From Gemmatimonadota bacterium (lineage in GTDB: Bacteria; Gemmatimonadota; Gemmatimonadetes; Longimicrobiales; Gaopeijiaceae), in NCBI GenBank assembly GCA_022564055.1, contig JADFMD010000005.1, positions 1-63,393 of the forward strand: 63,393 bases of DNA. The letters run 5' to 3'. This document shows positions 42,024 to 45,793 of this stretch, in pieces. Within the stretch, counting starts at the first letter, position 1. Every line of letters starts with the position of its first letter. Both the position numbers and the translations under genes were made by a program. The notes beneath the pieces are model-generated. The model was not told the origin of the DNA. It saw only the letters and a program-made list of their open reading frames with translations, and did not search any database.

Positions 42024-42116
42024 GGGGGAAGAATCTAAACAAAGTCGTCCCCGAAGCAGAGGCGGACGCCCGCGTGGCGCTCCTGACGCGGCTCGCCCTA
42101 CTTCCTCAGCAGGACA

Positions 42117-43496
42117 CTAGATCGCGTCGCTCACGCTCGCGAGGTTGAAGCCGCGGACTTTCATCGCCGGCACGACGATCGGCGCGGCCACGGAACTGCT
42201 CTCGCTCGCGGCAACACGGATCGGGCGCCCGAGCATTTCGACGTCTTGCAACAGCGATGCCAGCGACTGGTTGAAGCGGAAGTTGGTCACCGGCCGGGTG
42301 ATCCTTCCGTTCTCGATGAGGAAGGTGCCGTCCCGTGTGAGGCCCGTGTAGGAGATGGTCTGTGTGTTCAGACCTCGTATGTACCAAAACCGGGTGATCA
42401 GGACCCCTCGCCGGATCGACCCGATCATGTCCTCGACCGTCGCGTCCCCCCCCTCCATGATGAGGTTCGACGGGACGGGTCTCGGCCGGACTCCCTGCCG
42501 ATCCGCCCACGAACGCGTGTACGCCAAGGAGCGGAGGACACCGTTCTCCACCCACACTTCCGGCCGCAACGGAGATCCGTCGTCCGCGAAAGGACTGGTT
42601 TCGGCGTCCGGAGCGGATGGATCGGTGCGGATGGTAATGCTGGGATGGAAAACGCGTTCACCGAGTCTCGTGCCCCCACCTGGTCTCGAAAAGTAGGAGC
42701 GCCCCTCGTCCGCCGTCCGGGCGTTGAAGGCTTGGCGCCGCATGTTGCGGATCAACATTCCCACCGCCGTGGGCTCCAGGACTACGTCGTATTCGCCCGC
42801 TTCGAGTGTGGCCTTGCCACGCCAATCCAGGCACTTCCGCACCGCATCATCGGCGATCCGTTCCGATTCGATCGACGTCCAGTCTGCCGCCTCGTCGCCG
42901 GCCCACCCCGAGGACTGGCCGTCCGGAGTCCGCACCGTCAGCGTGGAGGCCACGCCCGTGGACGCATGGTGAGCGAACAACCCGCTCGAGGTCGCGACGG
43001 CTCTCGTGCCCGCGCTCACGTCCATGAATCCGGCAGCGATCGTCCCGGACGCCCGCGCGGCCTCCAAGCCCTGGGCCATCGATTCAGCCCTTGCCTCCGG
43101 AGTCAGATCACCGGTTTTCGAATAGTACCCCTCCACGGGAACGTATTCCTGTGGTCCGAGCTCGGGCATGTACTCGGGATCTTCGGGAGACAGGCGTGCG
43201 AGCGCCTCGGAATCCCGAACCGCCTGCTCGAGTCCGGCGGGGTCCAGCGTGTTCGTCGTCACCCTCGCCACCCGTTTTCCGAACACGCTGGTGATCTGGA
43301 CCGTCGTATCGGTGCTTCCGCCTGCGGTCGTGATGCGATTGGTCGCGGTGCGGGTGAACCCACGCCAGCCCGATCGGATGTTCACGCGCGTATGGTCGGC
43401 GCGGGCGAAGTCGAGCACCACGTCGCACAGCTCTCGGGCCTGCTCGCGCGAAAGGCCTCTCGGGGTGCCCCCCGCTCCGGATTGGGATGCGCTCAT
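42117..43496 (-). CDS. TldE/PmbA-like subunit of a TldD-type metalloprotease
   Basis: The 459-residue protein has the PmbA/TldE layout: GWRGFTRTATNRITTAGGSTDTTVQITSVFGKRVARV near the N-terminus, AGEYDVVLEPTAVGMLIRNM in the middle, and the C-terminal GGDATVEDMIGSIRRGVLITRFWYIRG and GTFLIENGRITRPVTNFRFNQS. TldD/TldE heterodimers cleave and process peptides, including microcin and other RiPP leaders. It lacks the HExxxH zinc motif, as TldE does. It has no signal peptide, whereas its partner does. ATG 43496 with GAGG upstream lies 8 bp after the tldD-like stop, so the two are an operon. Confidence 0.88.
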   Translation of the reverse strand: MSASQSGAGGTPRGLSREQARELCDVVLDFARADHTRVNIRSGWRGFTRTATNRITTAGGSTDTTVQITSVFGKRVARVTTNTLDPAGLEQAVRDSEALARLSPEDPEYMPELGPQEYVPVEGYYSKTGDLTPEARAESMAQGLEAARASGTIAAGFMDVSAGTRAVATSSGLFAHHASTGVASTLTVRTPDGQSSGWAGDEAADWTSIESERIADDAVRKCLDWRGKATLEAGEYDVVLEPTAVGMLIRNMRRQAFNARTADEGRSYFSRPGGGTRLGERVFHPSITIRTDPSAPDAETSPFADDGSPLRPEVWVENGVLRSLAYTRSWADRQGVRPRPVPSNLIMEGGDATVEDMIGSIRRGVLITRFWYIRGLNTQTISYTGLTRDGTFLIENGRITRPVTNFRFNQSLASLLQDVEMLGRPIRVAASESSSVAAPIVVPAMKVRGFNLASVSDAI

Positions 43497-43504
43497 GTAG
43501 GCCC

Positions 43505-45184
43505 TCAAGCGGTGTTGAGGATGTTCACGTCGCGGAACAGCGCCATCGGGCACCCGTGCGACACGGCGTTCAACTGGCTGGGCTGGCCCTTCGCGTCGCT
43601 GAAGGAGGCACCCATGTAGTACGTGGCCGGGCCCCCGAGCAGCGCCATCGAATTCCAGAACTCGGGCGTGCGGCCTTGATACGCCACGTCGCGCAGCATC
43701 CGATATTTCGTTCCGTTTCGGATCTCCCAGAACACCTGTCCCGCGAACTGGAAATTGTAGCGCTGCTGGTCGATCGAGTATGATCCGCGCCCCTCGACCA
43801 GGATCCCGTGGTCGGTCGCCGCGATGACGTCGTCCTCGCTCAGATCCTGCTCACCCGGCATGAGACTGACGTTGGGCATTCTCTGGAAGGGAATGCTCGC
43901 CCAGTTCTGCCCGTAGGCGCAGCCCAGGCTTTCCATGATACCCGTTTCCGCGGCGATCCAGGCGGCCTGCTCCCGCGTGGTCTGATAGTTCACGAAGATG
44001 CCGTTCTCGATGATGGGCCAGGACGTAGCCGCCACGCCCTCGTCGTCCCAGCCGGTGGTGGCGCAGCCCCCCTCCTCGGTCCGGTTGCCGATGAACGTCA
44101 TGAAGTCGGGACCGAGCCGAAGGTCGTTGAGCGCCTCCTCGGGTGGGAAGATGAACGACGTACCCGCATAGTTGGCCTCGTAACCCAGGGTACGATCGAG
44201 CTCGGTGGGATGCGCGATCGACTCGTGAATGGTCAGCCACAGGTTCGAGGGATGAAGGACCAGATCCCACGTCCCCGCGTCGACGGGCGCCGCACTCAGC
44301 TTCATGACGGCCTCCTCGGCCCATCGCGGGGCGTTGCCCGGAAAGTCGAGACCCAGCACGTACTCCCAGCCTCGCCCGGCTGGCTCGGCAACCGATCCGC
44401 GGCTCTGGAAGTCGGACCGGTCGGAGGAAAAGGCGGTGATGTTCATACTCGGATTCATCCGGATGAACGTCTGCTGGATGACCGAGCCCTCGCTCGTGGC
44501 GACCAAACGGCTCTCCTTCACGGAGCCGATACTGGAGTTTACGAACTCTACGCCGGACACGCGCATCGCCCCGGCGTTGGCCCGAAACAAGAGATCGGCC
44601 TTTTCTTCGATCGAGACGTCGAAGGGATCGACCTCGTGGGGTGTGACCCAGCGTCCGTCCGGTACCGACGCCACGGGGGCGAGCACGGTCTCGCTGGGAG
44701 CGATCCGGTCGTTGGCCCTCGCGATGGAGGCCGCTTCGCGAGCGGCTGCCGCAACCGACGCTCGGCTTACATCACTCGTCGCGGAAAAACCCCAGGAGCC
44801 ACCGACCAGAGCCCGAACGCCGATCCCGTAGGACTCACTCCGGCTGACGTTGGTGATCCGCTCCTCACGCGTGCTGACCGACTCGTTCCAGTGCCGCGAG
44901 ATACGCACGTCCACGTACCCGGCGCCGGCCGATATCGCCTCGTCGATGGCAAACAGTGCAAGTTCCCGCTCGGTTGCATCAGGAGCCGGGCCGCTCCCGA
45001 TGATGGGCGCGGTGGGACCGCATCCGAATGCCCCGGTGCCCGCAGCGAGAGCCACTCCTGTGACGCCGGCGATCTTGACGAATTCCCGCCGGTCGATCTG
45101 GTTGACCGCACGAGGGAGGGGGTGGTTGAGCGGGGTGGGTACGCGGCGACGGCCGAGCATACCGCAAACATCATCTTGACTCAT
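43505..45184 (-). CDS. Tat-exported TldD-like metalloprotease (lipoprotein)
   Basis: The 559-residue protein has a Tat motif (DRREFVKIAG, RR about 32-33) and a lipobox-like GAFGC (Cys about 55), so it should be a membrane-anchored exported protein. The TldD body follows, with the zinc motif HESIAH in WLTIHESIAHPTELDRTLGYE (about 320), TSFIFPPEEALNDLRLG and the C-terminal GQVFWEIRNGTKYRML. TldD proteins cleave unfolded peptides or RiPP precursors, normally in the cytoplasm. It lies just upstream of the TldE-like gene. ATG 45184 with GGGAG upstream is preferred to a further upstream start at 45262. Confidence 0.88.
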   Translation of the reverse strand: MSQDDVCGMLGRRRVPTPLNHPLPRAVNQIDRREFVKIAGVTGVALAAGTGAFGCGPTAPIIGSGPAPDATERELALFAIDEAISAGAGYVDVRISRHWNESVSTREERITNVSRSESYGIGVRALVGGSWGFSATSDVSRASVAAAAREAASIARANDRIAPSETVLAPVASVPDGRWVTPHEVDPFDVSIEEKADLLFRANAGAMRVSGVEFVNSSIGSVKESRLVATSEGSVIQQTFIRMNPSMNITAFSSDRSDFQSRGSVAEPAGRGWEYVLGLDFPGNAPRWAEEAVMKLSAAPVDAGTWDLVLHPSNLWLTIHESIAHPTELDRTLGYEANYAGTSFIFPPEEALNDLRLGPDFMTFIGNRTEEGGCATTGWDDEGVAATSWPIIENGIFVNYQTTREQAAWIAAETGIMESLGCAYGQNWASIPFQRMPNVSLMPGEQDLSEDDVIAATDHGILVEGRGSYSIDQQRYNFQFAGQVFWEIRNGTKYRMLRDVAYQGRTPEFWNSMALLGGPATYYMGASFSDAKGQPSQLNAVSHGCPMALFRDVNILNTA

Positions 45185-45290
45185 CAAGGCTCCCGGGCTG
45201 GCGGCCCTCCGAATTGCCGCCGGCTTTGCCGACGCTCGGTACAGATTATCGATCTCGACCAAAGGGGCAAGAGACTGATTTCCTTGGAGG

Positions 45291-45373: not shown

Positions 45374-45793
45374 ATGCGAGTGTCCTTTAAGCACCACATT
45401 ATCGTCGCCGGACTGGCGGTTCCCTTTTTCCTTCTAACCGCCAACAGCGCCGCGGCCCAGGGTCGGAGCGGTGATAGAAACGCTGGCGGAGGAGCTTCGA
45501 TCGAGTTTGCAGCGGAGATCAGCTTTTCCGTGGGGGATCGAGACCGAATCCGGGCCCACTATTCATCCAACCCCAACCCCGGGGTCGAAGCACTGCCTCC
45601 AGGCATTCGAAGGAAGCTGGCCAGAGGTAAAGCGATGCCTCCTGGCATCGCCAAGCGATCCCCGCCGGCCGGGCTACGATCCTCCCTGTCCGTTCCAAAT
45701 CAATTCGAAGTCTTCGAGGTGGGGCGGGACGTCGTGCTGGTGAAAGCCGCCACAGGGATCATCCATGATGTTCTCAAGGACGTGATCCGGTAG
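45374..45793 (+). CDS. CigR-like secreted protein
   Basis: The 139-residue protein has a signal peptide (about 1-29, ANSAAAQ). It carries the Pro-Pro-Gly repeat typical of CigR/RcnB-like small proteins: EALPPGIRRKLARGKAMPPGIAKRSPPAG (about 73-101), then FEVFEVGRDVVLVKAATGIIHDVLKDVIR. CigR in Salmonella is an inner-membrane protein linked to virulence control; homologues elsewhere are uncharacterised. No metal ligand cluster is evident. It is a monocistronic unit divergent from the TldD/TldE operon. Confidence 0.75.
   Translation: MRVSFKHHIIVAGLAVPFFLLTANSAAAQGRSGDRNAGGGASIEFAAEISFSVGDRDRIRAHYSSNPNPGVEALPPGIRRKLARGKAMPPGIAKRSPPAGLRSSLSVPNQFEVFEVGRDVVLVKAATGIIHDVLKDVIR

Follow-up and report, generated by a model that had tools for sequence, protein, structure and literature searches.

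Introduction

The structure, heterodimeric state and metal chemistry of Escherichia coli TldD/E have been described (PMC5810440); activity requires the heterodimer, which is about 65 Å across and falls within the 20–70 Å stated for substrates of the twin-arginine (Tat) translocase (PMC4273604). Hitchhiker export is likewise known for redox enzymes (PMC4273604, PMC6719666).

The stretch of DNA analysed here (the window; 63,393 nt of contig JADFMD010000005.1 from a Gemmatimonadota bacterium, assembly GCA_022564055.1) encodes a TldD with a Tat signal and, next to it, a TldE without one. To our knowledge, all descriptions of TldD/E are of a cytoplasmic peptidase with a part in toxin maturation and degradation; a search of mostly open-access literature for Tat-exported TldD/E returned no report. 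Shown here from sequence are the placement of the signal, its conservation, the translational coupling of the two genes and an empty site in a related genome.

Gene pair and active site

Both genes lie on the minus strand, tldD (43505..45184; 559 aa, TldD-type catalytic subunit) upstream of tldE (42117..43496; 459 aa, TldE/PmbA-type non-catalytic subunit), with an intergenic gap of 8 nt. The tldD frame was read from the ATG at 45184, with a GGGAG ribosome-binding site at the start, to the stop ending at 43505; this stop (TGA) lies within TGAGGG, the ribosome-binding site of tldE (43497..43507, minus strand), whose ATG is at 43496, and the pair is translationally coupled. By its PmbA/TldD domains and its fold the pair is a TldD/TldE metallopeptidase. 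Pfam matches above cut-off: TldD, first, second and third PmbA_TldD domains; TldE, second and third. Sequence comparison matched TldD with E. coli TldD (1e-22) and TldE with Thermotoga PmbA (2e-17); in Foldseek, the monomer models (mean pLDDT 80 and 92.5, respectively) matched E. coli TldD (5njc, E=1.8e-36) and archaeal TldE (6j6a, E=5e-35).

The zinc motif HExxxH is present in TldD as HESIAH (residues 320-325; 44210..44227, minus strand) and absent from TldE. The TldD relatives are invariant at the positions that correspond to H262, E263, H267, E270, D272 and R362 of E. coli. The place of the third metal ligand, Cys454 of E. coli TldD, is taken by Asp530 (motif DAKGQP; 43595..43597, minus strand), and Asp stands there in all window-group relatives checked (D-G/A-K-G-Q/E); such a replacement had been foreseen, with Gemmatimonas named (PMC5810440). 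The Asp-ligand TldDs fall on one strongly supported tree branch (quick method, long branches flagged). With HExxxH kept and Asp as third ligand, the window TldD/E looks like an active enzyme. Adaptation of the ligand to an oxidising periplasm was considered and rejected: Cys is retained by the Tat-exported TldDs of L199-L202, L119 and L169 as well as in the Sec-exported group, and probably cytoplasmic members are also found in the Asp branch. Another cysteine of TldD, C422 (ESLGCAYG), is invariant in 37 aligned relatives; its position differs from that of the known zinc-ligand Cys.

Export signals of the two subunits

A twin-arginine motif, DRREFVK (residues 31-37; 45074..45094, minus strand), is followed in TldD by a hydrophobic stretch and then by GAFGC, which ends at C55 (residues 31-55: DRREFVKIAGVTGVALAAGTGAFGC). 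The Tat profile TIGR01409 matched window TldD at E=0.042 and 14.2 bits, below the 16.7 cut-off and borderline for a single sequence. Signals were assigned from motif, hydropathy and conservation, and that of window TldD was accepted despite the sub-threshold profile because the motif is conserved across the relatives: R32 and F35 are invariant (37 aligned relatives, 15 of which matched TIGR01409 at E<=0.1), and a twin-basic motif was found in about 150 of 154 near-full TldD relatives, with a hydrophobic stretch in nearly all. The 154 comprise 119 with RR and a clear hydrophobic stretch, 8 with RR and a weaker stretch, 25 with a KR/RK variant and 2 with neither; four were signal-less on inspection. 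KR or RK in place of RR makes a weaker Tat signal. KRK-type motifs replace RR in many TldDs of Pedobacter and other Bacteroidota (e.g. L064, L075, L077, L108). The genome encodes TatC, Lgt and LspA; motif and hydrophobic stretch are thus found together with Tat machinery, the profile score staying below cut-off.

No export signal was found in any of 136 related TldEs, and no Tat profile match among 36 of them. The tldE start is fixed by the ribosome-binding site that overlaps the tldD stop, which makes a missed signal peptide very unlikely; M1 is nearly invariant (36 relatives), no hydrophobic segment lies upstream of the ATG, and a missed signal was rejected on these grounds.

Residues 52-55 of TldD, AFG-C (45020..45031, minus strand), resemble a lipobox with C55 as putative lipidated cysteine, and agree with the PROSITE lipobox pattern. 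AFG before Cys is a weak example and a loose fit; Lgt and LspA are encoded in the genome, and the Cys is kept in a small clade only. The pattern was found in 4 of the 154 near-full TldDs, to which L033 was added by eye; the carriers are the window TldD, L034 (by pattern) and L033 (by eye), which are the relatives closest to it, and two scattered members (L011, L039). The lipobox is a trait of the window's small clade and these two members, not of the family. A sequence-only reading of the window had described TldD as a lipoprotein with a Tat motif and TldE as lacking a signal peptide: both statements on the signals are borne out, the lipobox being a plausible one, and a lipoprotein would be peculiar to the small clade.

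Distribution of the family and placement of signals

Relatives were found in eight phyla (Gemmatimonadota, Acidobacteriota, Bacteroidota, Balneolota, Myxococcota, Pseudomonadota, Latescibacterota, Fidelibacterota), with a close relative (E<1e-100) in about 95 of 249 sampled Gemmatimonadota genomes; the signal-on-TldD-only pattern is that of a broad, unnamed TldD/E branch and is not unique to the window genome. TldE adjoins TldD in 121 of the 154 near-full cases, several of the remaining TldDs being at locus edges or second copies in tandem clusters. Tandem clusters in which TldD genes outnumber TldE were seen in Bacteroidota, Pedobacter included (e.g. L064, L075, L077, L108).

Group A, to which the window belongs (Asp ligand), has Tat on TldD and none on TldE. 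Group B (L199-L202, L119, L169; Cys ligand) has Tat on TldD, and the five partner TldEs that were read are signal-less. Group C is of Sec type, with signals on 18 of 18 D-type and 14 of 14 E-type proteins read, a few of them by eye; for some of its D-type genes no E-type gene was found nearby. It includes three D–E fusions, in which a single chain bears one signal. The fused chains (L162/L247 in G184; L165 in G020; L223/L231 in G347) consist of a TldD-like and a non-catalytic TldE-like half and are about 1,150-1,260 aa long. Four members of the Asp branch (L302, L303, L305, L306) have no signal anywhere and are probably cytoplasmic.

Separate small Tat-signal genes

In nine group A loci both TldD and TldE are signal-less and a separate small Tat-signal ORF lies just upstream (L053, 4705-4998; L054, 4766-5041; L057, 3757-4038; L060, 4748-4999; L277, 1259-1498; L280; L295; L299; L300); eight are from Acidobacteriota and one from Fidelibacterota. 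Four TldDs at first taken for signal-less have a Tat-signal gene just upstream in a different frame. The small proteins (about 80-98 aa) match no Pfam family above cut-off; that of L054 gave a weak match to PF12318 (E=0.015, below cut-off). When held out, their mature parts came first in a search of 26,445 ORFs for six of the seven groups, although the hit for L060 was weak (E=0.16); that of the L295/L299/L300 group was not recovered among these ORFs. Because of this recovery a mere frameshift is unlikely to lie behind the separate ORFs. The small Tat-signal protein looks like an escort or anchor subunit that has not been described before. No gene of this kind is present in the window.

Inheritance and genome context

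Distances among TldDs and among TldEs were correlated (r=0.884), and the true D–E pairing was better than the swapped one in all eight two-pair loci. Such co-divergence shows a pair inherited as a unit and is not by itself proof of contact.

The TldE-TldD cassette (3.2 kb; 42044..45277) is absent from a genome of the same genus, G241, in which the flanks lie 29 nt apart (L255); no TldD was found anywhere in that genome. The nearest TldD relatives (75% and 69% identity) sit in MAGs labelled Acidobacteria and Latescibacterota, and for this reason the cassette was more probably gained, by lateral transfer into the lineage of the window genome, than lost. Facing tldD is a gene for a small CigR-family protein that looks exported (45374-45793, plus strand; NF040487, 82 bits, cut-off 78); a CigR-family gene also adjoins the empty site in G241.

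MoxR, DUF58, BatA-type or DUF4159 genes adjoin the pair in Bacteroidota, Balneolota, Microbulbifer and several Gemmatimonadota; none of these genes was found in the window. Exported pairs beside MoxR, DUF58, BatA-type membrane or DUF4159 genes were noted at L261, L262, L265, L267, L270, L272, L100 and L110. Co-occurrence with DUF4159 was discarded as a functional link, being uninformative: DUF4159 is present in 232 of 249 Gemmatimonadota genomes.

Discussion

The TldD/TldE heterodimeric metallopeptidase is, with a probability of about 0.7, exported as a preassembled complex with TldE as signal-less passenger. The sequence shows that tldD and then tldE are translated in succession; as in E. coli, the subunits would fold in the cytoplasm and join around the metal site (H320, H325, D530); the Tat signal of TldD would take the complex through the Tat translocase, TldE going with it; in the window organism the complex may be tethered to the membrane via lipidated C55, the weakest step of the mechanism; and outside the cytoplasm unfolded peptides would be trimmed inside the hollow shell of the complex. 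One Tat signal would be enough because Tat moves folded complexes, whereas the Sec relatives need a signal per chain or a fusion; on the simplest account, an assembled complex would need one Tat signal on whichever chain, and Sec one per chain. The sequences give good support to an envelope location of the window TldD/E; that the subunits are exported together, that TldD is lipidated and that the peptidase acts in the periplasm we infer.

The sequence-only reading had left a choice between TldE riding with TldD via Tat and subunits that no longer act together; adjacency, translational coupling, the eight-phylum pattern, co-divergence, the Sec relatives and the separate-signal loci favour the first. 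If the subunits did act apart, TldD would be exported alone and form an envelope homodimer, TldE remaining in the cytoplasm as another. The signal-less TldE, the crystal structures known for TldE homodimers (PMC5810440) and the excess of TldD over TldE genes in some clusters would fit, and an active TldD homodimer reported for Sulfolobus (as cited in PMC5810440) implies that TldE may be dispensable in principle. Such a separation is nonetheless unlikely, the tight and conserved D–E adjacency, the coupled translation and the co-divergence standing against it; co-export is favoured over it because in Sec-exported relatives either both subunits have their own signal or the chains are fused, and because nine loci put the Tat signal on a separate protein with both subunits signal-less, so that signal and passenger are already separable there. 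Against co-export itself must be set the sub-threshold Tat profile of the window protein, the KR/RK motif in about 25 of the 154 relatives, and the fact that co-divergence could also arise if tldD and tldE were duplicated together. The same sub-threshold score, together with the four Asp-branch members that have no signal, would agree with an N-terminus that acts as a membrane anchor or is an inactive signal, both subunits staying at the cytoplasmic face; we hold this improbable, as motif and hydrophobic stretch are kept over eight phyla, the Tat machinery is present in the genome and a lipobox would be pointless inside the cell.

As for the substrate, periplasmic peptide processing had been proposed, with a check for precursor genes. 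The envelope location that this presupposes is supported by sequence; a general trimming of peptides is no less likely than the processing of leaders. That the enzyme is a leader peptidase dedicated to an exported RiPP precursor, a reading compatible with co-export since it concerns the substrate only, is improbable: the leader of microcin B17 is removed by E. coli TldD/E (PMC5810440), but no recurrent precursor-like gene was found in the flanks among clustered ORFs of at least about 90 aa, a size that a shorter precursor could escape, and the recurrent neighbours are instead those of the MoxR, DUF58, BatA and DUF4159 kinds, which the window lacks. A leader-processing role is thus left without support.

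For the family as a whole, we lean slightly towards TldD/E having moved to the envelope several times, the number of signals following the route: a single Tat signal for each assembled complex, borne by TldD or by an escort of about 90 aa, versus one Sec signal per chain or a D–E fusion. If this is true, TldD/E is a natural test of folded-complex export, and its Tat-on-TldD, Tat-on-escort, Sec-on-both and fused forms allow a direct test of signal placement against subunit assembly before export. If exported throughout its eight phyla, this TldD/E branch would make up a widespread envelope peptidase that has gone unstudied.

Comparison with known systems

With E. coli TldD/TldE (PmbA; PDB 5nj5, PMC5810440) the window pair shares the three-domain fold of both subunits and HExxxH in TldD only; the equivalents of E270, D272 and R362 are kept in window TldD, and TldE is degenerate. 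The E. coli genes are unlinked and their products cytoplasmic and signal-less, with Cys454 as ligand, whereas the window genes are coupled, with a Tat signal on TldD and an Asp ligand. The Tat hitchhiker complexes HybO/HybC and PaoABC (PMC4273604) likewise consist of one signal-bearing subunit and a signal-less partner encoded together; these known cases are cofactor-bearing redox enzymes, whereas the window pair is a peptidase whose co-export is proposed from sequence. The small Tat-signal hitchhiker subunit of FAD-dependent dehydrogenases (PMC6719666; PF12318) resembles the arrangement at L053, L054, L057, L060, L277 and L280, a small Tat-signal protein beside a signal-less enzyme; the enzyme is a different one, the mature part is otherwise unrelated, and in the window, where such a subunit is absent, the signal is borne by TldD.
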